From the NCBI GenBank assembly GCA_950295325.1, contig OX485805.1:1178501-1242500 (forward strand): 64,000 bases of DNA, read 5' to 3'. This DNA is from Polytrichum commune (lineage: Eukaryota > Streptophyta > Polytrichopsida > Polytrichales > Polytrichaceae). The position numbers and the translations under genes are program-made. Of the stretch, positions 10,902 to 58,813 are shown piece after piece (the stretch's first letter is position 1; each line of letters opens with the position of its first letter). The notes beneath the pieces were generated by a model that saw nothing but the letters and a program-made list of their open reading frames with translations, did not search any database and had not been told where the DNA came from.

Positions 10902-10990
10902 TGTCGCGCACCTCTCCATGAGGAGTGCCCGAAACACCATGGGCACAAGGGGAACCCCGGAGTGACACCCGGGACTTGTGGCGCCGTTGG

Positions 10991-20457: not shown

Positions 20458-20512
20458 ACATGAGACATTTTGCTCATTAATTTGGGCCATGATATACAAA
20501 AGACTTGGATCC

Positions 20513-21505
20513 GTGCAATAATGCAGACAACGGGCACTTGGAAGTTGGCAGTTTAGATAATTATTACTTTAGACATCACTCGGGAAGGGGAGCGCACGCC
20601 ACCACATGCGGTGTCTGGAAGGTGATTCCCAACCCACGAGCGAGGATTTTAACTTCCCGACACAGCTACACTGCTAAATATGATGTTTACTATCATATGG
20701 TATTCAATATGTCACCGTGGTAACTTTTGGGATGACTCTTCTTATGAATAAGTGAACAACTACTGTCATGGATGATGGATGAGTTCATCCATTGGCCATA
20801 ACTCTACTGTCTCTTGTGAGCAACTTGTGATGAAATACTGTCATGGATGATTGCAATTTGGATGAAAGATCACTTAGTAAGTGACAATAATTGCAACACT
20901 GTAAATCTTTAATCCCCAAACAGTTTACAAGGAACGACAATTAAAGTTGGGTTAACATCTAGTGCCGTGACACTATACTGCAGTTTACAATTAGTATTTA
21001 GCAAGACAGTCAGTGTTGAGCCAGACAAATAGAATTGGTGATACTAATATCGTATTTAGTGTGGTGGTCGGAGGATGGCAGATGCAACTAGGCCTGCAGA
21101 CAATTGTTCCCCCACTTGGTGCCTAGGGACACGATCAGTAAACTCCAATTTTTAAGAGCTTGTGGTAGCCCTCCTTGCATGGCAACCACAATTGCGGCAT
21201 TGACATGATCAAGTATGTATAAGTTATTCAACCACATAGTCAACAACATTATTCAGCCATGTGGGTCGGTTTCACGACTCTAGACTATGTCAATTATATT
21301 CCATGGAACCCCCTTCCAAAAAAAATGGGAATATTTATTTATTATGCGCGCATTGAGTATAGAGTCTCTCTTTGAATGTCTCATTGTTATTACACTTCCT
21401 ATTTAAAGCCAATTTTTTCCCTTATTTGTGGCCATCCATAACTTAGTTCCTATCACTTTGTCTTGACATTAATAAAGTAAAAAATTGACTTGATTGAAAG
21501 TTGAT
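20513..21505 (+). repeat. Left arm of a 993-bp inverted repeat
   Basis: The reverse complement recurs at 27413-28405 with no net length difference; the stretches I compared are identical except for two bases near the outer edge. The arm contains a short frame ending YDVYYHMVFNMSPW, a small TIR element at 20669-21061, and AATAAA at 21471-21476, 29 bp before the end of the arm. No recognisable protein domain. Confidence 0.93.
20669..21061. mobile_element. MITE-like TIR element, copy 1
   Basis: Ends are degenerate inverted repeats of the CACTAAATATGATATTTAGT type, with TA to the left and TG to the right. Homologous to the clearer copy at 60298-60672 and, in reverse, to 27857-28249. No coding capacity. 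Confidence 0.6.
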
Positions 21506-22603: not shown

Positions 22604-24628
22604 CAGTCTAACCTTGATAATGTCACCCTTGTTAATGGGACACCTTGATATTGTCACCTAAAAGTTTGAAACCGATTTTCTTAGTGTAAAACTCCCTCGT
22701 TATTATCCCTATCACCCTTGTTAATGTCACTATTTTTTTCCAAAATCCGTAGTGTAAATGTGATAATATCAAATATGGATGGATTGTATGTGATGGTTGG
22801 ATGGACATATTGTAGTAGCCAAAAGGGTCATGAGCCACCCTTGTGATAAATGCAATGTTATTCAAAGGGTCATGAGCCGCCTCTGTGCACCAACCCTGAA
22901 CGGTGCTGTCTATACACGGCACTCAAAGGTGTTGTCTTTGACGGCGCTGCCAAGACTTCTTGGCCTCTATGCACCCCACCTTCCGTCACATGTGTTCACC
23001 TATGTGTCTTTGAGGGTTTCAGCTTGTGTGACGTAATTTAGGATGTTAAGTTCTACGGTTTAGCTGAGCTGGTACAGAGTAGTGTCGACTTAAGCTAAAT
23101 TAGTTCAATTGGTTTGCAATGTAGAAATCTCAAGATATGTGGCACGGTCTTCACTGTTTCTATAGTCAATAGTCGCATAGGAGAATCTAGTAAGATCCTG
23201 AAGACATCTTCAATTTTGATGAGACAGGTTTGTATTATAAAGCCTCTCCTTGCAAGACTTTGAATATTGGGAAGGCAAAAGGAAATAAAAAGAAGAAGGA
23301 CCGTGTGACATTGGGGCTTTGCACTAATATCTCAGGGAAGGAGCGATTGAAGCTTGTTTTCATTCACAAATCAACACGTCCCAGATGCTTTCCTCGGAAG
23401 TTTGATCCAAATAGTATAGTACACTATTATTCTAACAATTCAGCCTGGATGAATGGTGATGCTTTTACACATTGGGTGAAGAGTGAGAACCGAAGAATGG
23501 CATTGCAAGATAGAAAAATTTGCATTATTATGGATAATGCAGGAAGCCATGATATTCATGGTGAGGTCAAAAAAGTTATAGATGGATTCAATGCTTTTGT
23601 ACTCTCCCATATCACTATATTGTTTCTTCCACCAAATGTGACTTCAGTTGTTCAGCCTTTGGATCAAGGAGTGATTGCAGCATTCAAAATGTGCTATAAA
23701 CGCAAGCTTGTTGCCTGGACTTTGCAACAAATTGATAACTCAAATGAAGATTTGGGGAAACTGAATGTTGATCTATTTCAAGCAATGCTATGGTGTGTGG
23801 CGGCATGGCATGAATTAGATGATCAAACCATTAGAAATTGTTGGAGAAAGTCTGCCATATTGCCTGCAGCGTGGAATGCAGATATCAACAATTCTGATGA
23901 ACGTATGAAGTCCAAAATGGAGGAAGCAGCTTTGGAATTGGGCAATCTCATCGCCGCATTGAATTTGGGTTTGGATGTTGAAGGCAAGCCTATAGAAAAG
24001 CTTAGTCCTTTAGAGTACATAAACATGGAAGGTGAAGATGATTTTGAGGTGGAATATTCTACTGAGGAGCTTGTGCAATTAGTGCAAGATGGTGAACATG
24101 TACTTGATTCCATGGAAGAAGACCCATTGATTGTTAATAGCAATGATGATGAGTCTAAAGTAGTGAAGCTAAGCGATGCACAAAAATATGCTAAAGATGT
24201 TTTGAATTTTATGGCTAGCCAAGGTTCTCAGATTTTCAACACTCATGAGTTGTTAGGAATGAAAAACATCCATGACAAACTCATTAGAATTGGTGTTGGA
24301 CATTTAACATCACTAAAACAATGTGACATTAGAAGCTTCTTTGTCTCTAGTGAGAGGTCTTTACCTGATCTCAATGACACATTGTGATGTGCTCATGTTG
24401 TTATTCACAATTTTGAATTATATTTTACATTCAAAAACATTGAAGTCTTGTGTTTGTTTTTTTTTTTTTTTTTACATTGTAATTTCATTTTGATTTTCTA
24501 CCTTTTTTTTTTGATAATATCACATTATGCACAAATCTTCAAAATGTGACATTATCAAATATGTCACACCTTGTTTATATCACACTTTATGGTGAAACGG
24601 ATGGTGTGATATTATCAAGGTTAGACTG
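22604..24628 (+). mobile_element. Pogo/Tc1-mariner-type transposon inside C1
   Basis: 2,025 bp. Terminal inverted repeats begin CAGTCTAACCTTGATAAT and extend about 25 bp; TA flanks both ends (22602-22603 and 24629-24630). The related element C2 shows an uninterrupted site (GATCTAGACCTAGAAG near 29650), which confirms the insertion. It carries one gene, a DDE transposase without its DNA-binding domain. Confidence 0.9.
23194..24387 (+). CDS. Pogo-like DDE transposase, N-terminally truncated
   Basis: The frame is open from 23194 (after TAA) to TGA at 24385-24387, about 397 codons; the first ATG in frame is downstream of the first catalytic residue, so the true start is uncertain. The DDE_1 domain of pogo/Tigger/CENP-B-like transposases is clear: FNFDETG (first Asp, codon 23218), IIMDNAGSHD (second Asp, 23533) and LPPNVTSVVQPLDQGVI (third Asp, 23662). 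The catalytic triad is complete. The C-terminal ~180 residues are acidic, then helical. The usual N-terminal helix-turn-helix domain is not encoded in 22630-23190, where I see only short frames. The enzyme likely cannot bind its ends alone, unless an upstream exon was missed. Confidence 0.82.
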   Translation, partial: DPEDIFNFDETGLYYKASPCKTLNIGKAKGNKKKKDRVTLGLCTNISGKERLKLVFIHKSTRPRCFPRKFDPNSIVHYYSNNSAWMNGDAFTHWVKSENRRMALQDRKICIIMDNAGSHDIHGEVKKVIDGFNAFVLSHITILFLPPNVTSVVQPLDQGVIAAFKMCYKRKLVAWTLQQIDNSNEDLGKLNVDLFQAMLWCVAAWHELDDQTIRNCWRKSAILPAAWNADINNSDERMKSKMEEAALELGNLIAALNLGLDVEGKPIEKLSPLEYINMEGEDDFEVEYSTEELVQLVQDGEHVLDSMEEDPLIVNSNDDESKVVKLSDAQKYAKDVLNFMASQGSQIFNTHELLGMKNIHDKLIRIGVGHLTSLKQCDIRSFFVSSERSLPDLNDTL

Positions 24629-27412: not shown

Positions 27413-28405
27413 ATCAACTTTCAATCAAGTCAATTTTTTACTTTATTAATGTCAAGACAAAGTGATAGGAACTAAGTTATGGATGGCCACAAATAAGGGA
27501 AAAAATTGGCTTTAAATAGGAAGTGTAATAACAATGAGACATTCAAAGAGAGACTCTATACTCAATGCGCGCATAATAAATAAATATTCCCATTTTTTTT
27601 GGAAGGGGGTTCCATGGAATATAATTGACATAGTCTAGAGTCGTGAAACCGACCCACATGGCTGAATAATGTTGTTGACTATGTGGTTGAATAACTTATA
27701 CATACTTGATCATGTCAATGCCGCAATTGTGGTTGCCATGCAAGGAGGGCTACCACAAGCTCTTAAAAATTGGAGTTTACTGATCGTGTCCCTAGGCACC
27801 AAGTGGGGGAACAATTGTCTGCAGGCCTAGTTGCATCTGCCATCCTCCGACCACCACACTAAATACGATATTAGTATCACCAATTCTATTTGTCTGGCTC
27901 AACACTGACTGTCTTGCTAAATACTAATTGTAAACTGCAGTATAGTGTCACGGCACTAGATGTTAACCCAACTTTAATTGTCGTTCCTTGTAAACTGTTT
28001 GGGGATTAAAGATTTACAGTGTTGCAATTATTGTCACTTACTAAGTGATCTTTCATCCAAATTGCAATCATCCATGACAGTATTTCATCACAAGTTGCTC
28101 ACAAGAGACAGTAGAGTTATGGCCAATGGATGAACTCATCCATCATCCATGACAGTAGTTGTTCACTTATTCATAAGAAGAGTCATCCCAAAAGTTACCA
28201 CGGTGACATATTGAATACCATATGATAGTAAACATCATATTTAGCAGTGTAGCTGTGTCGGGAAGTTAAAATCCTCGCTCGTGGGTTGGGAATCACCTTC
28301 CAGACACCGCATGTGGTGGCGTGCGCTCCCCTTCCCGAGTGATGTCTAAAGTAATAATTATCTAAACTGCCAACTTCCAAGTGCCTGCTGTCTGCATTAT
28401 TGCAC
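27413..28405 (-). repeat. Right arm of the 993-bp inverted repeat
   Basis: Reverse complement of 20513-21505, same length. In its own orientation it ends, 29 bp after AATAAA, in a run of nine A (27404-27412 on the plus strand as T). The left copy has no A run there. The tail suggests copying from a polyadenylated transcript. Includes the TIR element copy at 27857-28249. Confidence 0.93.
27857..28249. mobile_element. MITE-like TIR element, copy 2 (in the right arm)
   Basis: Mirror image of 20669-21061, carried along as part of the inverted arm rather than independently inserted. Confidence 0.55.
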
Positions 28406-29049
28406 AGAGCCATCTTGAGCACTTACGATGGAAGCTTCGCAGAGAATGCAAATTAGATTTTGCCTTGTTTCCTGGATCTATCTTTGTGTTCGTGGGCGGA
28501 GGGTTCCATTCGCGAGACAAGCTTGCTGGTCTGTTTGTGCGAAATAGTAGACGGGATCTGTGCAATTTATACAGTTTTGTTGCAGAGGCACAGAGCGTTC
28601 TCAGAAACTTGACATTCACAAGGAGCTTCTCAAATTTGCCCTCTTGGGAAAAGGGGAAACATGGCCTAATACCACTAGTGGAAAGCCCGGGCATTTCCCA
28701 CACTGCTTGCACAGTGTGAGGACACCTCCGGGCAGCCCCTACACGTGTCAGGGTTGCAAGGTCGTGTTGCAGCCTGTGTGTACGAACAGTCATCCTGGAC
28801 CAGTCCTATTTTTTATGCCGCGGAAGGTGCAAAACCATGTGTGCTGTGTTCTGGCTGTTTGGTGTAAAAACTTCTGGGTCCGCAGCATATATAGAAGAGT
28901 ATATATAGAAATTTTTACACCAAGCATATATAGAAGAGTATATAGTGCGCATTAAATGTAATCATTAATTAATTATCCCTAAATATACGTGCCGCACTTT
29001 TTGTGTGTCAGGGTTTTATGGGCCACAATTAATTAGTACATATCTCATT

Positions 29050-36022: not shown

Positions 36023-39000
36023 ATGGCCATCGAGCTTGGGCAATTATTGGCGAAGCAACTTTCAATGCTATGGCGGTTCATCATCACTTGCTTCGTATAC
36101 TTCTTGACACTTGTTCACAAAGAGAAACCGCATCGATGTGAGTTTTCAGAATTTTTGGTATGGAAAGAGGAAGAAATGATCAAAATGCAAACTATTCTCC
36201 GACGAGATGATGTGTTGAATAAGCGGCAATGCACAAATCTTGTCACCAAGCTTTCTACGACCGTGCATAGTATTATTGAGATGATCACATCCATCGAGCA
36301 ATCCTTCGAAGTAAGGATTGTGGTGATGGAGTTGCATCGTATCATACAAAAAGGGGGAGCATTAGTGAATGAATGTGGGAGTGGAGATTGGTGTCGTGCA
36401 GCTCTTTTCCAATTAAACAACAAAGAGGCCTTTCGGGAAGTCGTGTTTGATTTGAAGTGTTGTTGGGAGGCACTGCATGAGATATACTTGACAAACCACC
36501 CGAATCCAAAAAACTACACAGTGTGCAAGGATTTGAATGTGGCTACCTTGAAGGAAGTTGAAGGCGATGAACAAGACTTGCAAAAGAAACTTGAAAGTGC
36601 GCTTGAGGACTCCAAAGAACACATATTAGCAAAGCATTTGTTGAAGAGATTGAATTGTGATTTGCAACAAATGAGAGGTGGAGAATTGGATGCTTTGAAA
36701 ATACCTAAAGACTTTCCAAAACCTACGCTTGTGAAACTAGTGGGCTATGGTGCGTTTGGATCAGTGTACAAATCAGAATGGTTGGGATTACCAAGTGCAA
36801 CAAAAACGTTGGTGGTTCCAGAGGATTGTTCCGGTTTTCGCAAAGAAGTGGGGATATTGGCAGGCTTGAGCCACCCGAACCTCATCAAATATTTTTGTTG
36901 TGGAATAGACGAAGAACGTAATGAGTTACATTTGGTGATGGAGTTGATGGACATGAATTTGACAAAAATGTTGAAGAAGCTCAACAAGACACTCTTACCA
37001 TACGTTGTTGCAATTGATGTTATGCTTCAAATTGGAAGCGGCATGTGGTATCTTCATGACATGCATGTCGCCCATCTCAATTTAAAGCCAGACAGTGTGC
37101 TTTTAAGCTCCATGACCATTGACGGAGCAAAGGATACAAGTCGTTACCATTGTAATGTCAAATTGATCAATTTTGACACTTCCAAAATGGAAGTTCAAAG
37201 CAAACCGCAAATACAAAAGCATGAATATATTGTTGGTACACCAAGGTATATGGCACCTGAGGTAAGGGAGAGAAACTTGGCTTGTATGGCATGTCCTTTC
37301 CAAGCGGATGTATGGTCTTTTGCCATGACATGTTCAGAGATCCTTTCGGGGAAGGTACCATTTCATCACATAAATGATATGAGAGAAATTCATAAAAAAA
37401 TAAAGACGGGTGAAAGGCCGGAGCTACCTATCAATTGTGGGGAGCTTACCAAATTGATTCAGGAATGTTGGAGGGAGGACCCCTTACAAAGGCCAACATT
37501 CTCCGATATTTGCAAAAGACTCATAGGCTTGAAGAAGATGTTCATGAAGGGAACATATTTGAGTAATATGGTTCCGCAATACGATGGACTTAGGATTCTT
37601 CTTCCAAAGATGTCAACAACACTAAAAGTTTGCAAAGAAAAACCAAATCATGGTAGTGTGAAGGTAAATGCCACTTCCATTACAACGCGCTCACTAGATG
37701 ATTTATTCTCAATTTATTAATTGCTTTGATTTATTATTTTGGATGGTTGAAATTGAGGATGTCTTTTTGGTGGTAAGGTACATTAGTGTTTATTGACATA
37801 TTTATGTGTTGTACATATAGGTGTTTGATGGAACATTATTAAATGATCCAATGGTGGTTAGTCTCGAGAACAACCTTGCAAGAGTGAAACATCACCTCAA
37901 AGAAGTGAATACCTTGGGTATTGTCGGTATGGGTGGAATAGGGAAGACCACATTGGCGAAGGCTGTATTTGATGATGTGAAGTCCACATACGATGCATCA
38001 TGCTTTGTGGGGCAATTGAAAAGAAGGAATTTGCTTGATATTCTTCGTGAAATTTTTTCAAAATTTGGCGTAGACAAAGAAGTCAAGGATTTGGTGCATG
38101 CGCACAAGTTGATGGAAGAATTGTTGGACAAAAAGAAAGTCCTTTTGATCTTAGATGATGTTAAGGATGAAGCTCAAGTGGACGACATTATACCAACGGT
38201 CATTTTAGATCGGAGCAAGGGTACCACACTCATTATAACAACTCGTGATTGGGGTGCTATTAGAAATTGTGTGAGGGCGAGTGGTACAAGATTTGATGTG
38301 AGCAAGTTAGATGATGATGCAGCAAAAACTCTCTTCAACATTCATTCTTCTTGGGAAGCATCTCATTTATCACCACAATTTAATGATATACGGGACATAA
38401 TTGTGGAAGCTTGCAAGGGCTTGCCTTTGAGTTTGAAAGTCGTGGGGGCATGCTTACGTGGAAAAGGAAAGTTGCGAAGTTGGGAACGTGCATTGCAAAG
38501 GATGAAAAGGGGAAGGAATTTGGACGGAGAGGATGATGAGATATGGAATACCTTGAGAGTAAGCTTCGATGATGGTTTGACTCAAGAAGAAAAAAATATG
38601 TTCTTGGACATAGCTTGCTTCTTTGGTGGAGATGTGCATCCTAGTGGCATGTCGAAAAATAGAGCCCTACGCATGTGGGCCGATAACAACATCCCTCCAA
38701 TTTCTGCATTAGAGAATTTGGTCCATCGGGCATTGGTGACCGTAGAAATTGATGGTGACGGTGATGAAATTTTGCAAATGCACGACCACTTGTGTGCCAT
38801 GGGACAAATGATTGCTGAGAAAGAATATGCGGGTACTCGAATTTGGAACACAAACGGACTTACAAGCTGCTTGGTATTCTACTAACATTGGCTATATTAA
38901 GACATTGTTTTATGTATTCTAATTGTAAATGATTTCTTTAAACATTTTACTTGATGGAAAATCTTCAATTTAGAATGACATTTTGGGTGGATATTGGGTA

Positions 39001-42000
39001 AATTTTTAGGATGCTATAGATGCTTAGCACAAATTTATGTCATGTACTAGTAGTTGGAAAAATCTACACAAGTATAATATGCTAATACTTTCACATACTC
39101 TCAAAAACAGGATGTGGGTAAACTTCAAGGTTGTTTTTACTTTGGCAATGGCATAAGCGACAACCTATTTCAAGTTCGAGAAATCCAAGATGGTGGTCTT
39201 AGCTATCTTCGCCTATTGAGATTTCATGCCAAAGACATGAAGATCTCAAATATCATCAACAACATAGACTGCATTTGTTCACTTGCTACACGCTCTTCCA
39301 ACTTGAAATGCTTCATGATAGACTTAATACCATTAACTTGGGATGAGATGAGATCACGGATTTGGGATGACATGAGTTTGAAGACTTGTGGAGAACTATT
39401 AACAAATGCACATCTTTGGAAATCTTTTGTAAAATTACAAGTATTACAATTGCGAGGATGTTCATTCCTAAATCAATTACCCAAAGAAATGTTTTCAATC
39501 ACCACTTTAATGGAAGTAGATTTAGAAGGTTGTTCAAATTTGACAACAATACCGGACGGATTGGGGAACTTGAGTTCTTTGACAACCCTTGCTTTGAGTT
39601 GGTGTACAAGCTTGACAACGATACCGGAGGGATTGGGGAACTTGAGTTCTTTGATAACCCTTGATTTGACAGAGTGTGCGAGCTTGACAATGATACCGGA
39701 GGGATTGGGGAACCTAAGTTCTTTGACAACCCTTCTTTTGACAGGGTGTACGAGCTTGACAACGATACCGGAGGGATTGGGGAACTTGAGTTCTTTGATA
39801 ACCCTTGATTTGACAGAGTGTGCGAGCTTGACAATGATACCGGAGGGATTGGGGAACCTGAGTTCTTTGACAACCCTTGATTTGAGTTGTTGTACGAGAT
39901 TGGCAACGATACATGAGGGATTGGGGAACTTGAGTTCTTTGATAACCCTTGATTTGACAGAGTGTGGGAGCTTGACAACGATACCAGAGGGATTGGGGAA
40001 CTTGAGTTCTTTGATAACCCTTGATTTGACAGAGTGTGCAAGCTTGACAATGATACCGGAGGGATTGGGGAACCTGAGTTCTTTGACAACCCTTCTTTTG
40101 ACAGGGTGTACGAGCTTGACAACGATACCGGAGGGATTGGGGAACTTGAGTTCTTTGACAACCCTTCTTTTGAGAGGGTGTACGAGCTTGACAACGATAC
40201 CGGAAGGATTGGGGAACTTGAGTTCTTTGATAACCCTTGATTTGACAGAGTGTGCGAGCTTGACAATGATACCGGAGGGATTGGGGAACCTAAGTTCTTT
40301 GACAACCCTTCTTTTGACAGGGTGTACGAGCTTGACAACGATACCGGAGGGATTGGGGAACTTGAGTTCTTTGATAACCCTTGATTTGACAGAGTGTGCG
40401 AGCTTGACAATGATACCGGAGGGATTGGGGAACCTGAGTTCTTTGACAACCCTTCTTTTGACAAGGTGTACGAGCTTGACAACGATACCGGAGGGATTGG
40501 GGAACTTGAGTTCTTTGACAACCCTTCTTTTGACAAGGTGTACGAGCTTGACAACGATACCGGAAGGATTGGGGAACTTGAATTCTTTGATAACCCTTGA
40601 TTTGACAGAGTGTGGGAGCTTGACAATGATACCGGAGGGATTGGGGAACCTGAGTTCTTTGACAACCCTTCTTTTGAGAGGGTGTACGAGCTTGACAACG
40701 ATACCGGAGGGATTGGGGAACTTGAGTTCTTTGATAACCCTTGATTTGACAGAGTGTGGGAGCTTGACAACGATACCAGAGGGATTGGGGAACTTGAGTT
40801 CTTTGATAACCCTTGATTTGACAAAGTGTGCGAGCTTGACAATGATACCGGAGGGATTGGGGAACCTAAGTTCTTTGACAACCCTTCTTTTGACAGGGTG
40901 TACGAGCTTGACAACGATACCGGAGGGATTGGGGAACTTGAGTTCTTTGACAACCCTTCTTTTGACAAGGTCTACGAGCTTGACAACGATACCGGAAGGA
41001 TTGGGGAACTTGAGTTCTTTGATAACCCTTGATTTGACAGAGTGTGGGAGCTTGACAACGATACCAGAGGGATTGGGGAACTTGAGTTCTTTGATAACCC
41101 TTGATTTGACAGAGTGTGAGAGCTTGACAACGATACCAGAGGGATTGGGGAACTTGAGTTCTTTGATAACCCTTGATTTGACAGAGTGTGCGAGCTTGAC
41201 AACAATGTGGAAAAGTTTGGCAATAGATGATATAAATGCATTTGAGGAACATTATATGGATGTATCATCAAATGATCCAAGTTCGAGTGTCAATTTGTCC
41301 CCTTCACATCAACAAGTGAACATTGAAGAGTTGCCAATAGTTGGGAGAAAAATGTTTGAATTCCACTATACTCTGAACTTTTTAATTTTGATTGGAGGGA
41401 GACTTCTTGGTCATTCTATGGCAACCATTTTATTTGCCCTCGTTATAAAAGAAGTTTTGAAAATCACAATTAAAGTGACTTTATTTTCCGCCATCACCTC
41501 ATCCATGATGGAGATTACAACTTTTGGTCTCTTGAATTTGATCCCATATTGGATTCATAGGAGACATCATAAAGATTTATGTATCGGTAAATGTGGTGGT
41601 TATTTATTTTGTGAGAGAGTTGGGTTATGCATGTCTATGATTTACGTGCAAGTTTGTTCATTATGGGTGTGGTCGCTGGTGTGTCTATGCCATCAACTAC
41701 CCAATCCACACTTATGGAGCATACTTTCCCTCAGTTTTATATGGTTTTTGGTGGTGCTGCTTGAGTTCAACAAAATTGAATGGAAATGTAGACTTTGGTC
41801 TATGTTGAAACTTGTGCTCCAAGGGAAGGCATACATAATAGCTGATTACACAAGAGAAGTAGTTCCAGACTTGGCTCCTTGTAATCCATTCGCAGATGTT
41901 GTGAATTCCCAGGATGTTGATAAGTTCATCACTCCGCAAGGACAAGGCTTGGACAATTTATGGTTTCCGATGCATTGTGAGGAGCAGGTGTGGAAAGAAG

Positions 42001-43307
42001 ATATACACAAACATATCGAGAAATATGGTCATTTGAAACATCGAGTTTTGTATCCAATCAAGACCAATCAACGACGTATTTTCTTAATCGGTTCTGGGTG
42101 GGTGGAAGTGGAAGTGCTTGAAGATGACAATTTCAGGTTCCAAAGCTCAGTTAGAGGCCGCATAGTGCAATACTTCTATGCTACCTTATCTCCTCAGCAA
42201 TGTTCAACACTCTTGGCTCTACTTGCCATGTGGGAAGACTCACCAAACTTGGGTGTTTTGGAAAACTTTGTTCAAAGAAGTGATGGCATTTATTGTCACT
42301 GTATGGATCTCCAATCCATGGTTGAGTCTTTGTTCGAATGCACCGATTTTATGGTCGTCATGCTTCAAAACCCAATCAAATTCCACATCGGTGCGAAATG
42401 TACAAGGGAACAGAGTCCTACCTACCTCATCGCGTTTATTGCACAGATCCTCACAGGTGTAGGCACTTATTTTCAATTGAAGGATAGCTACAACAATGTG
42501 GCAATTGTGCTCACTAGCTTGGGTATTTTGGTTGGAATGGGGGCAATTACGAGCCCAAGCATATTGTTGTTGGAGAAAATTTTGGTTTATAATGTGTTAT
42601 GGTGTTTTCGATTGGGGTCGCAACGATTGTTGCGCCTTTACCTACAATTGAAGATATGGAATTGTTTCTTGGCATTCTGTGATGAGTTCAAACCAGTGCT
42701 CCACCGGGCGAATGCAGAATCTGAGCTTATAACATTATTCAATTGTAGCCATGGATCACCGACTTGTGATTTTGATAGACCAGATTGGTCAGAGGTTGAG
42801 GCAGATCAAACTCCATATGTGGCAAACGCAAGTGCAAAAACAAATGTATTGACGAGCAAATCTGGCGAGATTCTTGAATATCGACACCCCTCTGATTATA
42901 GAGCCTCTGATTTTAGAGCCTTTGAGCTCAAATGTCGAAGGACAGTGTATGCTGAAAGCACGTACGACGGTGATGTGCTCGAGACACAACTCTGGCTTGA
43001 CGGTGAAGATTTCAAGGAATACAGATGGAGTGAGGATAGCTACTTTCTGTTCGTCTATTTGATGATCAAATGGAGCCGAAGAGAGTTTGGCGTGATTCGT
43101 AGCTCGCGACACTTGATGTACAGACGATACTATCATGTGTTCAATGTGCACGAGTTGGCGAGACACATAGCAAAACACAGATTAACAAAATATAAAAAGT
43201 TGTTGGACGAGTCTGTTGACGTGATGACAAGGAGGACAATTCCCAGGGAGAATGCAAAACTTGATCCTGCAAACAAAGGAGAGATGGTTGCTGGATATCA
43301 TGTGTGA
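36023..43307 (+). CDS. Kinase-like / NB-ARC / LRR receptor with multi-pass C-terminal region
   Basis: Exons 36023-37663, 37821-38873 and 39111-43307, both introns GT-AG and phase 0, give about 2,296 residues. Residues 15-31 are strongly hydrophobic; 40-220 look helical. Kinase-like domain ~235-505: loop GYGAFGSV (241-248), K261, E275, HLNLKP in place of HRDLKP (D to N at 353), NFD in place of DFG (383-385), GTPRYMAPE (405-413). The two lost aspartates predict a pseudokinase. NB-ARC: P-loop GMGGIGKTT (583-591), LLILDDV (655-661), TTLIITTRD (682-690), GLPLSLKVVG (747-756), MHD (867-869). LRRs ~1049-1600. Residues ~1653-1785 and ~2002-2058 hold about six predicted membrane helices; the rest of the tail is unknown. 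Kinase-NB-ARC-LRR genes are known in mosses and taken to be immune receptors; the membrane tail is not part of that class as I know it. Splicing is inferred from sequence only. Confidence 0.88.
37664..37820 (+). other. Intron 1 of the receptor gene
   Basis: 157 bp, AAG/GTAAATG donor and TACATATAG acceptor; joins ...HGSVK to VFDGTLLND in phase 0. A diverged copy of this intron lies at 43823-43965 in front of the partial duplicate, which supports the exon 2 start. Confidence 0.85.
38874..39110 (+). other. Intron 2 of the receptor gene
   Basis: 237 bp, TTG/GTATTC donor and CAAAAACAG acceptor; joins ...GLTSCL to DVGKLQGCFYFG in phase 0. Without it, the frame stops at 38885. Confidence 0.8.
39561..41216 (+). 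repeat. Coding array of 23 near-identical 72-bp LRR units
   Basis: Each unit encodes 24 residues, LGNLSSLxTLxLxxCxSLTxIPEG. Two main types alternate irregularly: one with ITLDLTECASLTMIPEG and one with TTLLLTGCTSLTTIPEG. Blocks of two to four units recur, so expansion was by blocks. Units differ by only a few bases, so the array is young or kept uniform. A 72-bp period keeps all six frames in phase, which explains the long spurious antisense frame (39499-40968). Preceded by more diverged LRRs (LQVLQLRGCSFLNQLPKEM, about 39440-39490). Confidence 0.97.
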
Positions 43308-43822
43308 CAATTTCAGCAGTCACATGCATGAGTCCATGCTAGGAAGTACACCCAACACATGCATTCATTTTGCATTAGAATCTAAGTGCTATGTTGATTA
43401 GAGCGATCTTCATGACTTGTCATATAACATTATTTTTTGAATTTTGAAGAATCTAAGGTAGCTCAAACTGAAAGGTCTCAAGTGACCTTAAGAATTATAG
43501 ATGATTAGATGGACAACCAAAAGAATGTTGTTTTAGTATCTTGACCCAAAGCACCAAGATATTCCAAGTGTAATTTACACATCAATAAAGAGGCTCGGGG
43601 GTGAGAGGAAATCATCAGCTATGTGACTTCCTTCTCTATGGTTGGGTGGAGAGCCTTTCTCAAACTTCTCTTACTATCTCGATTGCTAACATAACACTAT
43701 ATTAGGTAATTTTGGATTTTTCATCCTCTCAAATTAATATATGCATGACAACAACATGAAGTTGCCTAGACATAGGCTATTGTATACCAATAAGAAATAT
43801 ATATCCATTACATCCATTACAA
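43308..43822. other. Spacer between receptor gene and its partial duplicate
   Basis: No coding signal; would contain the receptor gene's 3' UTR and polyadenylation site. Confidence 0.6.
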
Positions 43823-44888
43823 TGCGCTCACTAGTTGATTTATTCTCAATTTATTAATTGCTTTGATTTATTATTTTGGATGGATTTTTTTATTTGAGGA
43901 TGTCTTTTTGGTGGTAAGGTACATATATTAGTGTTTATTGACATATTTATGTGTTGTACATATAGGTGTTTGATGGAACATTATTAAATGATCCAATGGT
44001 GGTTAGTCTCGAGAACAACCTTGCAAGAGTGAAACATCACCTCAAAGAAGTGAATACCTTGGGTATTGTCGGTATGGGTGGAATAGGGAAGACCACACTG
44101 GCGAAGGCCATATTTGATGATGTGAAGTCCACATACCGTAGGTTACTAGCAGCTTGGGCAGAAAATAATTATTTACAAGAGCGCCTAAATTTTTTGGAAA
44201 TTCTTGACTCTGTTTGCCCAAAAAAAATAAAATAATATTATGGTTCTGCCCAAAATTACATGAATTCAAGTGGCATGTGAGGAAATCCAGCAAAATGGTA
44301 CCAAATATGTTCTACATTGACTTTAACGCATCCGTTCTCCACAAATTCAGCTGACACCCATGCTTGCTGCAAAGCCCACAAGGGTCTCGTGGGCTCAATC
44401 CGTTGAATCCTAGCTGGGTTTGTGAATGGGTCAGAGAGGGCTCGGAGCGGGAGTTAGTGAACGCGCTTGACTCGCCCACATGAACTACGTCGTTGTCTTC
44501 TCTGTCTCTCCCGTCGTCTCAATCTCTACGTCGTCTTTGTCTCCCCCGCGTCTCTGTTTCTCATGCGTTTCTGATTCCCTCCGCCTCCTGCTGCTGCTTG
44601 TTATCGTCGACTCTCGTGACAGGTTCAGTGCCTGGAAAAACCTCACCGTCAGCTCCGGGAAGAGAATTTCCAACCCGTAGCTCCTGTGGTCTTGTCCCCT
44701 CGCTCTCTCCGCTTCTTTGTCGAGGAAAACGTCAATGTCATCGGGTCTGGTTCTTGCCCTCTGAAAACTGTCTGCGCTTCCTCGCACTCTTTTCTCGCCG
44801 TCTCCGCTAGCGCGTGTAAAAACCCGCGAGCCCGGCTCTCGACTTCCGTGTTGCTGCTGGTCAAGCCCCCAATGCACGAGACCCAGAG

Positions 44889-45030
44889 AAGTCCCGGCGC
44901 TGCGGAGGCGCAGGCTGCGATCAGGTGATCCGACCGAGTCCCGGCGCTGCGGAGGCGCAGGCGGCGATCAGGTGATCCGGCCAAGTCTCGCCGCTGCGGA
45001 GGCGCAGGCTGCGATCAGGTGATCCGACCC
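44889..45030. repeat. 47-bp GC-rich tandem repeat, three copies
   Basis: Units of the type AGTCCCGGCGCTGCGGAGG...GATCAGGTGATCCG start near 44889, 44937 and 44984. They lie just upstream of the rRNA fragment. Confidence 0.85.
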
Positions 45031-45067
45031 TACCTTGGCCAGGAGTTAGGAAGCGTGTGGGAAATAG

Positions 45068-45325
45068 TCGAACGCATCAGACCTCACATCAGGAAAGCCT
45101 ACCCGCTGAGTTTAAGCATATCACTAAGCGGAGGAGAAGAAACTAACCAGGATTTCCCTAGTCACGGCGAGCGAACCGGAAAGAGCCCAGCTTGCCCCTC
45201 GAATTGTAGTCTGGAGAAGCATCCTCTGCAACGGACCGGACCCAAGTTCCCTGGAACGGGACGTCGGAGAGGGTGAGGACCCCGTCGAGTTCGGACCCTG
45301 TTGCTCCACGAGGCGCTGTCTGGAT
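45068..45325 (+). pseudogene. Fragment of 26S (large-subunit) rRNA
   Basis: Contains the conserved start of eukaryotic large-subunit rRNA: CTACCCGCTGAGTTTAAGCA, then AAGCGGAGGA, GAAACTAACCAGGATT, GGCGAGCGAACCGG, AAGAGCCCAGCTTG, CGAATTGTAGTCTGGAGAAG and CACGAGGCGCTGTC, in order. About 20-30 bases of the usual sequence are missing after AGCCCAGCTTG, and substitutions are scattered (for example ATATCACTAAGCGG for ATATCAATAAGCGG). It covers roughly the first 250 bases only, so it is a dead captured piece and not an rRNA gene. Confidence 0.93.
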
Positions 45326-45640
45326 ATCCAGTGACGAAGGAAGCATGCGGTTAACAAAATTCAGTTCACATCCAGTGGTAGTAGTTTGTAGAACCCGGTT
45401 ATTAGGGTTTAGATCTCTTCAAAATTGTACTCCTCTAAAGTAACACACTTATCATGCTCACCGGATTAACAATGAGCACATCAGTTTCTCAAGCCTGCAA
45501 GTCAGCGAGTCCAGGGGAGGGAGATCTCCATACTCCAGCCTTGACTCGGCTTTGCGAATACATGGCTTTGGGCGTCATCCACTGAACTTCACGGCGTTTG
45601 TGGATTTCCTCTTGCGTGCCATGCTCTTTAGAGTAGAAAC

Positions 45641-47404
45641 TTATGTCTTTCTATTGGATGTTGCAATCTCTGTGGCTTTTGTCAGTGCATCTTCCATCAC
45701 AGTTTCAATGGTCTGATCTGTATCAACGTCCTCTTCCTTTTCAACACAGTCTGGTTCTGTTTCTTCTATTTTCACCTCAAACAGAGTTGTCTTCATGTTC
45801 ACATCCATGGCCATGCTCTGAAATTTTGGTTGAAAAACTTGTTGAAGACCACAATGACTCCACCCAACCTGGATCATGTCAGGTCGTTGAATATGTTGCC
45901 ATGCTTTGAGTAGCCAAGCACATAGTTGAGGCTTCAAAATTGTCATCTTAGTATCCACCTTAATATGTTTTGCTGCTGTAAACTGTAGTTGCTTCATAAT
46001 ATCATCAGAGGTGAATGAGTCGAATTCTTGCCTGAACCCATGTTTGAATGGCTTCTGAAGAATAACATCAGCTGGTTGGAAGACACTAGTACAATTTGCT
46101 GGCACAAAAATGATAAGGATTTCTTGGTGATTCTCTTTCATCCAAGATATGAACTCCTTTGACTTGTGCACACTCCAACAATCTATCAATCATATCAATT
46201 TTGTGTCCTTGTCCAGCTTCAAATGCCCAATTTGTTTTTCTCTGTATGGTTGTAGTATCTTCTCCACAAATGCTTTGCATGTTTCCACATTTGACCAATG
46301 ATTCTCAGAGTATGTGAGATGCCATCCAGCTTCCTCACATGCGATTCGCCTAGCATTTAGTGGAGGTAAGCATTTTGTAGTTGTTCCTGTAAAAACAACT
46401 TGGAATGGTAAAACATTTCCAGCTGCTGTTGATGATACAGAGACTGTAATCTGCCTTTTGTCATCTGCCCCATGAATTAGAATATGTTTTGATCCTCTTT
46501 TTTCCGATGTGTAAGCTCCTCCTGTTGGAACCAAGTGTATGCCAGTCTGATCTGTGTTGACAAATAACTCCTCAGGAATGGAGTATGCCTTTGTAAGATA
46601 TGCAGCTCTGTAAGCCATTTTCAAACCTTGTTCCTCCTAATCCTTAGGTAGCTTTCTTGCTGTCCCTGTAACCTTCCTGTAACTCCAATCTAAGTTGTCT
46701 CTAACAAATTCACGACACCAATGTAAACTGACCTTGAAAGCTGTTTTCCCATCTTGTTGGAATAACTTAGGTTCTTTTGTGGCAATTAGGGTTCTAATCC
46801 TAGTTCTCACACTAGATGCAAACAATGGCTGACCTGTCTCTCTAAGAGCCAGAAGCATTTCGAGTATCTCCTCTTGTAGGTCATGATATGTTGACAGGAC
46901 ATATTTATGCTGAGAACCTTCAGTGAAAGAAGATTTCTCATCATAAATTTTTTTTTTCACCCCCTCTTTTAATTCTCCAGAGGGGGTGAACCAATTGAAG
47001 AGAGAGCCTCTAGTAAGATCATCATAGACACTTCCAATCTGCCCTGGAAGCTTGTACTTTGCTTGCAAATACCTTAATGCGGAAGTGTAGTTCTTGTGAA
47101 CTGTCATTGCAGCATGAATTGGACCCCAAAGAGAAGGGAGAAACCAATTTGTGTAGTTGCCTCTAACCTGAGCCTTCTTTGTGGTTGATGCCTCTACCTT
47201 CTCCACCTTTGGTGTTAGCAATGTTGCTTGAAGCTCCTTCTTGGGCCTCCCAACTGGCCTCTTGATAACCTCCTTCTCCATTCCCTTCTCCAGCTCCAAT
47301 CTTCTTTCCAACATTGCAAACTCACGTTCCACACTTGCTTGCATCTCTTCTTTGTCAATAGGCCTAAACATACATTGCAAAGTCCTCTGGCCTGCCATTT
47401 TCAC
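45641..47404 (-). pseudogene. DDE transposase with two in-frame stops
   Basis: A single frame from ATG at 47404 to the terminal stop near 45641, about 587 codons, broken only by TAG at 46637-46639 and TGA at 46190-46192. The N-terminal part is charged with an AT-hook-like KRPVGRPKK. DDE motifs: VNTDQTGIHLVPTGG, LIDCWSVHKSKEF and VPANCTSVFQPADV, giving three acidic residues. Both stops stand where Trp would fit (KDxEEQGL and KLIxLIDCW), so each is one G-to-A change from TGG. No frameshift: inactivation is recent. Closest to pogo-like DDE_1 transposases. Confidence 0.87.
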
Positions 47405-48439
47405 TTTATTTTTCTACAATATCTCTTTCACAAATGACATACCGTAACTCACAAAACCTCTTCCCTACATACAAAAACTCATTGATACACGACAAAAGTG
47501 TAGCACACAACAATATCTCTGCTTAAGGTTACCAATGCAAGCGATTAGGGTAAAGTTGAATGTAGAAGTAGCCGTCATCCCTGATGAAAGTAACCCTAAC
47601 GTATGAAACTGGATGAATGCCTAACTTATATTTAATCATAATTTAAAACTGCCCGACTTTGAGATATTATTTTTTGAACTGCCTAACCATTTTTTGCACT
47701 TTAATTAATTATTAGGCAAAAGAATGCCCAAGCTGCTAGTAACCTACGGTACGATGCGTCATGCTTTGTCGGACAGTTGAAAAGTAGGAGTTTGCTTAAT
47801 ATTCTACGTGAAATTCTATTAAAATTTGGCGTGGACAACGAAGCCATGGATTTACTGCATGCGCACAAATTGATGGAAGAATTGTTGAACAAAAAGAAAG
47901 CCCTTTTGATCTTGGACGATGTTAAGGATGAAGCTCAAGTGGACGACATTATACCAACGGTCATTTTAAATCGGAGCAAGGGTACCACACTCATTATAAC
48001 AACTCGTGATTGGGGTGCTATTAGAAATCGTGTGAGGGCCAGTGGTACAAGATTTGATGTGAGCAAGTTAGATGATGATGCAGCAAAAACTCTCTTCAAC
48101 ATTCATTCTTCTTGGGAAGCATCTCATTTATCACCACAATTTAATGATATACGGGACATAATTGTGGAAGCTTGCAAGGGCTTGCCTTTGAGTTTGAAAG
48201 TCGTGGGGGCATACTTACGTGGAAAAGGAAAGTTGCGAAGTTGGGAACGTGCATTGCAAAGGATGAAAAGGGGAAGAAATTTGGACGGGGAGGATGATGA
48301 GATATGGAATACCTTGAGAGTAAGCTTCGATGATGGTTTGACTCAAGAAGAAGTACCCTTTTCACATTCGACGACTTTCTATCCCAAATGCTATATAACA
48401 AATGCAAATCTTGGTTAGGCCTCTCTCCGCCACATTTGA

Positions 48440-48902: not shown

Positions 48903-50214
48903 TGCAACCGAGACAACTTAGTGGAAGCGTTGAGGTCTCGCCTAGATGTGTCATGTTAGGCTAGTAGAGCCTAACGGGGGAGGCCCCAAAGGAGGGGCAA
49001 CCCAAGTGAGTCCCAAAGTAGGTGGGTCTAGTATAGGTTAGGTCCTTGGAGGAGAGATCCAAGGTCGCTGACGGACCACCTAACGACACCTTTGGGACTA
49101 TGCCAAATTTGAAGATGCATTGTGGGGGTCGCGCCCTAAGGTAAACACAATGCGGCACCATAGAGGATGGCAACTTGAGAATTGGTGTGCCGACTACGAG
49201 TATAGTCGATGAGGGCATCGACTCCGTTTGGTGGGGGTGAGTGTCACGCACCTCTCCATGAGGAGTGCCCGAAACACCATGGGCACAAGGGGGACCCCAG
49301 AGTGACACCCGGGACTTGTGGCGCCGTTGGTGAGAGGGCCCAAGTGATCCTAGTGTGGGCAAGGGCCCCGGGCGTTGGGAACGCCTCCCACCCACGGAGA
49401 CTAGGATGCACAAGGGTAAGGCCATGAGCTATGCGTAGCTCATGGCGTGGTGATTTCAGAATGCTCAAGATCACCTCAAGCGGAGGTGTGAGCTAGGAGT
49501 TATGGCCATTTGAGTGGGGCGCTGTCCCGGGACAGCGCCCTGGTACAGCAGTGCCTGGGAGTGATTCCCGGGACTGCCAAGGTTCAAACAGGCATAACTT
49601 CCCCAAGACGTGCTCGAATGGGGCAAGTGGGGAGTCCATCGGCATCTACGTGAAGCGTAGATGAAGATGGAGTGGTCGGTTGTTATGATCAGACATCATA
49701 CAAGGAAGTTATGATGGTCTGAAGCTGCTAGAGGCTTCTTAGCCCAGCGGCTAAGGGAGAATGTTCACTTGGCCCCAACTCTTGGTGGAGAGACAAGAGG
49801 TTGGTTGACGGTGGGGTAGGGGCCCCGTGTAAAGTCCTAGAGGCTTATATGGGTGAGGTGGTGTGGCCTCACCCACCCGAGGCCGAACGGCACGGCCTCC
49901 ATGGGCATTGGCCCAAGGTGAGGCCATAGTTGCCTAGTATGGTTCGGGTTGTTGTAGTGTTGCTCCGGCAACGCGATGATCAACATGGGATTGGACTTCC
50001 ATGGATGGAAGTCCACATCTAGGAATGGGCTACCGATTAAGGGGTGAGTCCTGAAAGCAAAGTAGGAGGGTTGGTTTCCTCCTATGAGCTATATGGTCCG
50101 GGGTAGGAGGAGCTAACCATTAGCATGGCGGAATGCGAATGGTTAGCGCTCGTAACCTTTGCTAGAATTGAAAATTGGCAAGATTGTCAAGGGGGGCTAG
50201 CAAGGGTTGCGACA
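48903..50214 (+). mobile_element. 5'-truncated family-A/B retroelement tail with 3' LTR
   Basis: 48903-49241 aligns with the 3' region of B from about 16712 and ends in the same purine tract. The LTR is 49242-50214, again 973 bp, starting TGTCAC (one change from TGTCGC) and ending GCGACA. A few percent diverged from B by eye. Everything upstream is missing at the junction with the 85-bp satellite. Confidence 0.9.
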
Positions 50215-53745: not shown

Positions 53746-54898
53746 ACACCTCCCTCCCGTTTACCTTTTTGACTACTCAAGCTAACACAACTTCTACTGT
53801 TTTAGTATTTTTTTTATGGTTAAGTTGTCATTTGGGCACAACATTGGGCTCACACTCACCCACAATGAGATGTCCACTAAGGTTTCACTCAACAATGCCA
53901 ACCCACCCAACAAACTACCACCTCCTAACAACAATAAACCACCACCAAAGGCCACCTCCAAGATCGCAATGCGCTCCACGAACAACAAAATCGCCATTGC
54001 CACCCACACAATACAATGCCACAAGGGTAAGCAAAACCACTTGCACCCATCATCTAGCAAACAATTCCATAAAAAAAATCCAAAATTCAAAAACAAACTA
54101 TCTATAAACTTACCTCCAAAAAAACATTGGCACCTCCACATGCGCCTCCACATGATCAAGATCAAGCACCTTCCACACCAGATCCATACTAAAAACCACA
54201 CAAACCACCAAAGCACGCCAACACACCCTAAATCAATAAGCCACACTTTGACACCTAATTACCCAAAACAAACAAACCACCATCAACTCAAATCTGCCAC
54301 AAAACTCAACTAAAATCGGATCCACAACGCCAAAACACTGGAACCCATATAGATCTACACACCACAAACCACCAAAAACCACCAATCTTGCTACATCTCC
54401 ACCCACCACACCGCCCAAGATGGGAAAACACCCCACAAACACTCACCTGCTCCGAGGCTGGAAAAAAGAAACCCACCAAAAAATGCAAAAACTCCAAGCT
54501 CAAACAAAACCAATAATGCCAAAATAGACAACCCCACCACCCACAAGATTACTCTCAAATACCCCAATACCTCACACATTCTCTCATCCAACTCACCATC
54601 ACCCCAGCCTCAATCAAGATGATTTCCATAAGCTACCCCCTCGCCACCAACCAAGCAAACCTCCCGGATCATTCCATACATGCCCCCTACAATCACAACC
54701 ACAACATAATCCCACAAATGGCACTCCCAACTCATAGACTACAACATACAATACACACACATAATACAACCACCAAAATACCCCCCACACACACTTTAAC
54801 CCTACAAGCATCCACACTACCCCACTCTACAAACACCCGCATGCCACCCGCCACATCCACCCACCATAACACCCATAAAATGAAAAAAACAATACCAC

Positions 54899-55652
54899 AT
54901 GCACACATCACTCACCAACCTAACCATAAAAAGGGTACCACATACATATACATCACATACAACCTCACACATAATACATACAATAACCAATACAAAAACC
55001 AAAACAACCCAACCCCCCCAATCATCCCCATCAACACAAATATCCCACATAGGCAATATCTACCACATAACCCACACACACCAAAAAAAACCCAAAACTA
55101 AAACCATACAATACTACACTTGGAACAACTCCGCACTCATCCTCTTACACGGAGACATTGAACTCAATCCAGGACCACTATCAAGCATTCTCAAAAACCT
55201 CCCACCAGATTACACACAAAGACAAAAACAATATTTCATACCACAATATTCCAAACACACTAACACTCAAACCCCAATACACACGCCTAGAGAAACTATT
55301 TGAACCACACCTAGCCCAAACCACCCCTAGCTCCCAAAACCAAGATCTAGCACATCTACAAAAACATTGTGCTCTCCTCTCAAAATATCCCACACACCAC
55401 CAACGATATGCACTTATAATAGCCTACAACCCAATACCACACATATGTAACCAACAAATGGCCAAAAATATGGACCCAAGGTATTTAACCATCCTAAGAA
55501 GACTTCACAAACTACAAATAGAAGCACACCCAGGTTCAATATATAGAGATAACTACCATCACTTTAGCACAACCACAACCACCATAGCTCATGCATATTC
55601 CAACATCAACAATAAAATTCCCAAAGGAATACCCATAACCACAAAAACCTAA
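54899..55652 (+). pseudogene. LINE frame with 2A-like peptide, frameshifted
   Basis: Frame 54899-55303 is rich in Thr, His, Asn and Pro and contains LILLHGDIELNPGP, codons for GDIELNPGP at 55151-55177. This matches D(V/I)ExNPGP, the 2A ribosome-skipping consensus, with the usual leucine-rich stretch upstream. A frameshift between about 55200 and 55290 moves the continuing protein to the next frame (KLFEPHLAQTT..., KHCALLSKYPTHHQRYALII), which ends near 55652. Family knowledge: 2A-like motifs occur near the N-terminus of some non-LTR retrotransposon polyproteins. Confidence 0.6.
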
Positions 55653-55730
55653 ACACAGAACTACCCCACTTCCCACTAAAAATAATACACGAACTAACCA
55701 AATGTACCCAAAAAATAAGAGGATACCACT

Positions 55731-57805
55731 TGTGATGCAGATTTTTGGATGAGAAGAGTGAATTTTGGTATTGACGAACATCTGAAGGAAGAATTTCACT
55801 CAAAACTTTAAAAATAGTAAAGGAATAGGCAATTAGTCAATTAGAAAGGGAAACTAGCTTGTGGGATACGAATCTCTATGCTGACCGTAGTATAGAGATC
55901 TCACAAGGCATGGAATGGACATGTGACAATTAGAGATGCATTTTTGGTATCACAGTTCTTAACAGATGTGACTCTTAGGTAGGGTAGGATAAGAAGGAGG
56001 AGAAAGAAGACATAAGAGAGAGAACATTAATTTTTTACCTTCCTATCGTGAAGAGAGTAGATCTCCAAAACTTGTTTGTCATCTCCTTAGATTCTCGAAA
56101 GTAATTGGGTGTGAAACCCTTAGTTTCCTTGTAAATCATATTTTGAAATATATCAAGTTACATTTCAATCATCTCACTCTTGCCCGGTGTGTTCTTGTGT
56201 GTTGGAATGTCGAGTTCTGTTATCTAATCTGAAATCAATTTGGGAGTGTGACACTCTTGAATGAAAGAATGTGGGATTTGTGTATGTACATCAAAGACAG
56301 TTTGAGTGAAGAATCTCTTGGACAGTATCTTAAGGTTGCAACTACAGAAGAGTAATTTCTTGGTGATTGGAATAATTGGATGTGAAGTCCTTGATAGGGC
56401 AGTAGTCTCGGCTTTACGAAATATATCCAGTTGGACCAATTAGTTTATGATCAATCCAGATTGTGGTGTCGATAAGTAACTTTCTGGATCTAAACTGGAT
56501 TGATTCGTAGTTCTCCAGTTTGAGTATCTTTGGATAGTATTTTAATGTTGTGATTACAAGAGAAGAATTCTGTGGGATTTTGAAGTGTCCGGGTGTGAAG
56601 CCCTGGGGATGTTCTGTGAGCTCCCCATTGATGTAGAATTGTTCATGAACTATTGAAGTGTTTATTTTCTTGTGAACAGATTAATACAAGTTCGTTTCTA
56701 AATTGAAATTATCTGGAATGTGGGAAGGTCCATAGAAGACCATTCTTGGTTGACATGCACTTGGGGAGTGAGAAATTCCACCTTGTGTAAATGTTGAAGT
56801 CATTCACGTGGAATTAATGTAAGAAGATCAACATTGAATGAAATAGCCTGTGTAGAACTTTGGAGTGGACTTGCGAAGGAATGCAGGAAGTTCCTCAAGG
56901 AGCATTGTTAAGACCCTAGATTCCCTAGAGTTCTCAAGGAAAAAATCTTTGAGTTAAGCGTGAGCATTTTTGAAGTAACCTGCTCTGATAAAGAATATGT
57001 CTGATTGTATACTTCTTTGAGAGGGTCATTTGAACTCCACTGATCCAACATACTGTTCGAATTACTCGTTTGTTTTCACGTAGGTAGCGAAGTTGTCGAT
57101 GATTCCACATCAGGGGACTTGAGAAAGTGAATCTCTGATAAAAAAAATCAGTCAGGATAGTCGAGACAAGAGAGATAACGTTGAAAATTCTATAGAGCAC
57201 AGGGAGAATTAAGATTTGGCGACGAAATCCTTTCCTCAATAACAGACGGGTGAATGTGCTGGGAAGATCTGCAATCATCTCATTCCATTTGGTAGAATCA
57301 TGTAAGCAAAGGAACAATGTAATTTCATTGATTCAAATGGGCCCACAAAGTTAACGAAGTAAGCTGGTTACTTGGGACTAGACTGTCTACTGGTGACTTG
57401 GATACTAGACTCGAGTTACTGTTCTGGTCTGATTCGCTTAGGACGCTGCTCGCTTGGTTCCCGGTATGTGGTTCCGTTACTTGTAACTAGACTTTTATCA
57501 AAAATTACTAAGTCCTAATTTTTATAAGTATGGAAAATTTATGGCAGAAATATTTGAGGTAGTTTTCATAGTTTCACCATGTGTTTGAAGAGTATTTCTT
57601 AAATTAATCAATTTGTGGTGAGAGAGCGACAATTAAAGTCAAATGAGAGCACATCCCTTCTGATAATTGAGTGTTAAACATATTCCATTATCACTTTGAA
57701 CTATCAATTGACCTTATCGTGACAAACTAAAGATACATCTGACACTTATTTAGTCTTCCCTGGGTGTTTTTTCAAGTGGACCCCTGGCATAAAATCTTTA
57801 CTACA
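55731..57805. mobile_element. 2.1-kb solo LTR in the LINE
   Basis: Starts TGTGATGC, ends TTTACTACA, flanked by CCACT (55726-55730) and CCACC (57806-57810). Base composition returns to A+C-rich exactly at both edges. Same ends and near the same length (2,075 against 2,134 bp) as 8324-10457, though the interiors are strongly diverged. No gene inside. Confidence 0.75.
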
Positions 57806-58680: not shown

Positions 58681-58749
58681 TATACCAAACCCGCAAACAA
58701 CCCGCGAATCAAATACCCCCCTCTCCCCGAACCTGAAACCCTGTCTGTT

Positions 58750-58813
58750 GCCAAGCCCTGTCTGGTAACTTAACTTACAGTGCACACTGAGATCGCCATC
58801 GCCACGCCATCAA
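58750..58813 (+). other. Probable 5'-UTR exon of OST4
   Basis: A GC-richer stretch ending GCCACGCCATCAAG/GTATGAA, a good donor. The next good acceptor in front of a coding start is ATACGCAG at 59761-59768. An intron of about 955 bp in the 5' leader would explain why 58814-59768 has no coding signal. Confidence 0.4.

Follow-up and report, generated by a model that had tools for sequence, protein, structure and literature searches.

A moss PNL-class receptor gene with a predicted multi-pass membrane protein behind its leucine-rich repeats

In nucleotide-binding leucine-rich repeat receptors (NLRs) generally, the leucine-rich repeats (LRRs) keep the NB-ARC domain closed until a ligand and nucleotide exchange open it, after which the receptors oligomerise and their N-terminal domains act; plant NLRs are usually regarded as soluble before activation. 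We describe here a predicted gene at 36023-43307 on the + strand of a stretch of Polytrichum commune DNA (contig OX485805.1, positions 1,178,501 to 1,242,500; these 64,000 nucleotides are the window) that encodes, from the N- to the C-terminus, a kinase-like module, an NB-ARC domain, an LRR array and an in-frame tail of about 700 residues. By its architecture and intron phases the gene belongs to the PNL (PK-NBS-LRR; protein kinase, nucleotide-binding site, LRR) class of mosses, in which, according to the portion of Xue et al. (2012, PMC3352924) used here, phase-0 introns are conserved at the kinase/NBS and NBS/LRR boundaries. The P. commune gene shares with this class the kinase domain, the NB-ARC, the LRRs and the phase-0 introns at both domain boundaries, and differs from it in adding a predicted multi-pass tail behind the LRRs; the main text of PMC3352924 does not contain the word 'transmembrane'.

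The tail also makes this gene an NLR with an integrated domain (NLR-ID) by the usual definition. As in the NLR-IDs presented in excerpts of PMC4759884, PMC5067614 and PMC11218826, an extra domain stands at an end of the NLR and has relatives that exist alone, whereas the integrated domain of the P. commune gene is a predicted multi-pass membrane protein for which Pfam has no model. 'Transmembrane' likewise occurs 0 times in the main texts of these three papers and, to judge from the method as excerpted from PMC4759884, Pfam-based surveys of NLR-IDs would omit the tail because it has no Pfam model. C-terminal membrane helices have a precedent in other families, since excerpts of PMC7145615 report predicted membrane helices in NLR-like proteins of Chromochloris zofingiensis, one of which has two/four at its C-terminus, and membrane signatures in brown-algal NB-TPR and red-algal NB-WD40 proteins. 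The green-algal case, as given in those excerpts, concerns an NTPase domain of the Kidins220/ARMS/PifA type, whereas the moss case concerns a moss-type receptor whose tail belongs to an unnamed family without a Pfam match. No report of a comparable NLR tail was found in the open-access literature searched, which is a weak negative.

Gene structure and reading frame

The spliced model joined three exons into 2,296 residues with one stop, at the end. Exon 1 (36023-37663, 547 aa) encoded an N-terminal helical region and the kinase-like domain (Pfam families Pkinase and PK_Tyr_Ser-Thr, scanned over 36023-37720), exon 2 (37821-38873, 351 aa) encoded the NB-ARC and a Roq1-type winged helix, and exon 3 (39111-43307, 1398 aa) ran in a single frame, open to the stop, through a pre-LRR region, the LRR array and the tail. 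Both introns (37664-37820, 157 nt, and 38874-39110, 237 nt) were of the GT-AG type and in phase 0. Pfam matched NB-ARC with 121.9 bits, LRR_14 with 200.9 bits and also WHD_ROQ1, and the NB-ARC motifs of exon 2 were intact (GMGGIGKTT, LLILDDV, GLPL and MHD). The tail frame contained no stop over 694 codons while each of the other five frames contained 28-50, and among all six frames its codon usage was the closest to that of the kinase and NB-ARC exons. This established the architecture of the gene and an open frame through its tail. A preliminary description of this DNA, made by a model from the letters alone, had noted an immune-receptor-like gene whose exon at 39111-43307 carries LRRs and then about 700 residues, and this observation was confirmed.

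Repeat analysis and the Pfam LRR families placed the LRR array at 39540-41203, with 23.1 copies of a 72-bp unit and 89% matches. This likeness of the units in DNA over 23 copies suggests expansion by unequal exchange. An antisense open frame of 592 aa (39473-41251) lies over the array and is explained by the 72-bp periodicity.

Relatives, helices and conserved parts of the tail

At least seven distinct protein relatives of the tail were found, P0002-P0008 (P0005-P0007 from jgi; P0002, P0003 and P0008 from ena); two of the tail searches scored only the 7,997 and 7,998 candidates with the most words in common with the query, so that further relatives are possible. P0002, of 1,138 aa, has an LRR array of its own, different from that of the P. 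commune gene, and a tail 85% identical to the P. commune tail. Identity between the two proteins was 35% in the first block, which holds the last LRRs, 77% in the next block, which holds the linker (41208-41378), and 75-93% from there on, and the conserved stretch of P0002 began immediately behind its last LRR, at the same junction as in the P. commune gene. Because this junction recurs in P0002, the fusion is not an accident of a single locus, and the recurrence is the strongest evidence that the LRRs and the tail would form one protein. P0004 (a Sphagnum fallax protein, as named by its source), P0005, P0006 and P0007 were free-standing proteins of 634-748 aa, without LRRs and with 29-32% identity to the P. 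commune tail. The missing LRRs of P0003 and P0008 were uninformative because their contigs have just 2335 and 2457 bases. The LRR-tail junction is thus present at a second locus, and the tail has free-standing relatives; tethering to the membrane at the C-terminus and a lineage-specific fusion, both considered in the preliminary description, fit these two observations. That description had also held that a match of the tail to a known, separately transcribed family would refute the fusion; an unnamed family does stand alone elsewhere, but the fusion is still real, as the P0002 junction indicates.

The P. commune tail matched no family in Pfam (E <=1) and none in NCBIfam, and its profile matched no sequence in the PDB. 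It is probably a member of a small moss-associated family, so far unnamed. Of the seven relatives, five (P0003-P0007) were scanned for weak Pfam matches; P0004 and P0005 had none, while matches below the cut-off were ATP-synt_C in P0006 (E 0.00035, 21.2 bits, cut-off 24) and P0007 (0.62), Inovirus_capsid in P0007 (0.11) and Presenilin in P0003 (0.34). These weak matches sit on hydrophobic stretches and were used only in weighing a channel function. Among viral contigs and prokaryote genomes no relative of the tail was confirmed from 316 and 161 pattern matches, respectively.

Six hydropathy peaks (mean >=1.3) were found in the tail, three at residues 1671-1784 and three at residues 2003-2067 of the full model, near the 'around six helices' that had been placed at 1653-1785 and 2002-2058 in the preliminary description. 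From the eight peaks >=1.0 of the family-average hydropathy we took six as helices, with boundaries drawn by hand: helices 1-4 at 41379-41765, the first two of which merge into one peak in the P. commune profile, and helices 5-6 at 42420-42551, where peaks >=1.3 were present in P. commune and in 7/7 relatives. In the first group P0002, P0005 and P0007 each showed four peaks, P0006 showed three and P0004 two; the sequences of P0003 and P0008 are cut there. The last of the eight family-average peaks (tail residues 607-625, 1.01) lies inside soluble domain 2, and six or seven of the eight could be membrane helices. The hydropathy variance of the P. commune tail was reached by 27/1000 shuffles, that of the free-standing relatives by 0 (P0007), 2 (P0005), 3 (P0004) and 5 (P0006) of 1000, and that of the other relatives by 24 (P0008), 29 (P0002 tail) and 51 (P0003) of 1000. 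Taken alone, the hydropathy of the P. commune tail was weakly above chance.

The topology was predicted from the helix count, the loop charges deciding nothing. Lysine and arginine were in small excess in the loops of P0004 (23/115 vs 4/26), P0005 (19/109 vs 3/20) and P0007 (19/107 vs 4/28). Six membrane helices would place both soluble domains on the side of the LRRs, and hence in the cytosol.

Comparison of the parts of the tail with the four free-standing relatives showed that 62-66 of 196-198 residues were identical in soluble domain 1 (41766-42398; motifs CNPF and GIYCHC) and 89-97 of 231-232 in soluble domain 2 (42552-43304; FLAFCDxFxPVLHRA and YYHVFxxxELARHI; counted over tail residues 441-694), whereas 7-11 of 38-40 were identical in helices 3-4 and 5-7 of 46-48 in helices 5-6, and helices 1-2 were barely alignable. 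Among the close relatives, helices 5-6 were identical at 37/48 positions in P0002, 24/48 in P0003 and 23/46 in P0008, while soluble domain 2 was identical at 220/249, 192/243 and 184/248, respectively, and soluble domain 1 at 181/212 in P0002. The sequence comparison firmly marks helices 5-6 as the least conserved part of the tail, in contrast with the soluble domains; for helices 1-4 the contrast depends on uncertain, distant alignments. On balance, the pattern of conservation speaks for an anchoring role of the helices and a working role of the soluble domains, and mildly against a channel; it is not decisive, since the closest relatives conserve helices 1-4 well. In the low-confidence structure model, soluble domain 2 is a strand bundle plus a helix, and fold comparison of the models gave no significant match.

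An internal duplication of the tail, seen by eye (GIYCHC/YYHVF, LGV/FGV, and helices plus a strand domain occurring twice), is not claimed: when profiles of its two halves, built from 7 and 8 sequences, were compared with each other, the probability was 0.1% and the E 0.65 over 34 columns.

The kinase-like front end and the readings of the gene

The kinase-like domain (36731-37516) had a Pkinase match of 125.8 bits; what the preliminary description overlooked is that the catalytic Asp of HRD and that of DFG are both replaced by Asn. As these motifs read HLN and NFD in the spliced model, catalysis is unlikely; a candidate ATP-site Lys is present. Comparison of the kinase exon with PDB sequences gave 6lba_A (128 bits) and 6ka4_A (121.8 bits) as the best matches, followed by MAP3K9 (87.7 bits). 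The first two are titled 'Protein kinase family protein' and 'F22L4.1 protein' in the PDB listing, where MLKL is not named, and we take them to be Arabidopsis MLKLs. The 'kinase' is more likely an MLKL-type pseudokinase.

The match of the kinase exon extended weakly into the N-terminal bundle of 6lba_A and 6ka4_A (RQC, EL-R, G---V--C---DW). This HeLo-like region, resembling the N-terminal bundle of plant MLKLs, covered residues 58-153 (36194-36481) in a weak collinear match to residues 21-124 of 6lba_A, with a local score of 76 that was reached by 1/2000 and 0/20000 shuffles in two runs. Its score with 6ka4_A was 45, equalled in 4/2000 shuffles, while control stretches from the NB-ARC and the tail scored 24 and 29, respectively, with 6lba_A, and 23 and 34 with 6ka4_A. 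Pfam found only kinase families in the N-terminal region, and a hydrophobic stretch at residues 13-31 was not beyond chance (413/1000 shuffles of residues 1-898). The N-terminal 547 residues thus resemble plant MLKLs in their best solved relatives and in the loss of both catalytic Asp, but differ in being fused to an NB-ARC-LRR and a tail instead of standing free, and in the weak match of their HeLo part. Arabidopsis MLKLs are pseudokinases while one wheat MLKL retains catalytic residues, according to an excerpt of PMC10951266, and in the excerpts of PMC11218826 MLKL forms an NLR-associated class separate from the kinase-NLRs. The latter source also reports modest, variable cell death in N. 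benthamiana with the kinase of a P. patens kinase-NLR, a response that would fit a module capable of signalling, without demonstrating the mechanism proposed below.

We favour, tentatively and with slightly less than even confidence, the reading that the gene encodes an intracellular receptor of the moss PNL class which carries a whole multi-pass membrane protein as its C-terminal integrated domain. The tail would hold the receptor in a membrane, with its conserved soluble domains serving as bait or sensor; binding of a ligand by the LRRs and the tail would open the NB-ARC and cluster the receptors, and the N-terminal MLKL-like HeLo/pseudokinase module might then damage the membrane or signal. 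If this is true, a moss NLR built into a membrane protein would offer a natural way to test pre-anchored signalling, and it would mean that integrated domains without a model escape surveys based on Pfam. An MLKL-like N-terminus would connect the kinase-NLRs of mosses with a known executioner and hint at the role of their 'kinase', while the tail defines a protein family without assigned function, whose Sphagnum fallax member could be used for genetics. A bolder version, which we regard as doubtful, is a necroptosis-like machine in one chain, with an MLKL-type executioner, an NB-ARC switch, an LRR sensor and a six-helix membrane anchor, in which activation would cluster the pre-anchored receptors and the HeLo bundles would insert with no translocation step.

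Several results weigh against the favoured reading. The LRR-tail fusion of the P. commune gene is known from genomic DNA alone, P0002 is known only as LRRs plus tail, and the N-terminal 232 residues taken alone had no PDB match at E <=10, so that the HeLo homology is weak. In the P. commune tail by itself, the four peaks at 1.5 were reached by 233/1000 shuffles (226 in another run) and the peaks at 1.3 by 186/1000, the loops gave no positive-inside signal (lysine and arginine 17/117 vs 3/20), and the structure models were poor (mean pLDDT, the predicted local distance difference test score, 38.8 and 43.0). A possible seventh helix in the first part of soluble domain 2 (42558-42614, tail residues 446-464) had a family mean of 1.54 and reached 2.36 in P0003, and with seven helices soluble domain 2 would come to lie on the opposite side of the membrane. 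Helices 1-2 were identical to P0002 at 36/39 positions, above the soluble domains of that protein, and helices 3-4 were identical at 47/55 positions in P0002 and 22/27 in P0003.

These counts for helices 1-4 speak at the same time for the tail as the source of output, in the form of a channel or pore opened by the NB-ARC switch, as do its six or seven hydrophobic stretches and the match of helices 5-6 of P0006 to ATP-synt_C, a membrane-ring subunit, albeit below the cut-off; the resistosomes of coiled-coil NLRs are an established case of NLR output by way of channels. Such a tail is nevertheless improbable: conservation is lowest in helices 5-6 even for P0002, P0003 and P0008, the reverse of a conserved pore; the tail matches nothing in Pfam, NCBIfam or the PDB sequences; and a candidate executioner is already present as the N-terminal module. 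The effector or channel role suggested in the preliminary description accordingly gained little support. An integrated decoy without a membrane role, whose soluble domains mimic the target of an effector and whose helices are a by-product of uptake, would account for the good conservation of the soluble domains and would have company in the moss NLR integrated domains reported in excerpts of PMC11218826, PMC4759884 and PMC5067614. It is unlikely in that the peaks of helices 5-6 occur in 7/7 relatives and both P0002 and P. commune also retain the first group; since these two keep the peaks of both groups, the fused forms show no decay of the hydrophobic stretches.

Two genes without an intervening stop, the one for the tail being expressed from a start inside the LRR exon, or splicing that omits the tail, would agree with the free-standing members of the family and, short contigs notwithstanding, with the listing of P0003 and P0008 without LRRs. 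We give this arrangement a low probability, given the 694 codons without a stop and the 77% conservation of the linker with P0002, which lies inside the range of the tail blocks. That the gene is a pseudogene or a product of assembly is the least probable of these explanations: a broken second NB-ARC copy just downstream points to a locus that is rearranging, but the frame is open at full length across three exons, the splice sites are canonical, the NB-ARC motifs are intact, and the same junction stands at the second locus.

The surrounding DNA

The second partial copy comprises intron 1 and NB-ARC sequence in two pieces, 43810-44136 and 47750-48352, which are 94.8% and 95.4% identical to 37673-37991 and 37989-38591, respectively, and are split by a 3.6-kb insertion. 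Self-comparison of the window (matches >=150 bases) detected no second copy of the kinase or of the tail. The insertion (44137-47749) has inverted ends (27 bp including TA, with CCGTAGGTTACTAGCAGCTTGGGCA inside) and TA at both edges, contains a remnant of a DDE_1 transposase on the - strand (45641-46189), and is presumably a pogo/Tc1-like DNA transposon.

A second DDE_1 transposase frame, of 397 aa, was found at 23194-24384 between inverted arms of 1000 bp (20506-21505 and 27413-28412) that are 99.6% identical. A unit of about 980 bp occurs in four copies, at 10990-11963, 17060-18039, 19484-20457 and 49241-50214 (91.6-99.8% identical to the first), and in a shorter fifth copy at 18034-18913 (88.6%). 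The stretch 54001-56000 is rich in C and A and strongly asymmetric between the strands (GC skew -0.54, AT skew +0.41), and the two open frames scanned within it had no Pfam match. As an Exo_endo_phos_2 frame follows at 57938-58765, this stretch may be the front of an element resembling a long interspersed nuclear element (LINE).

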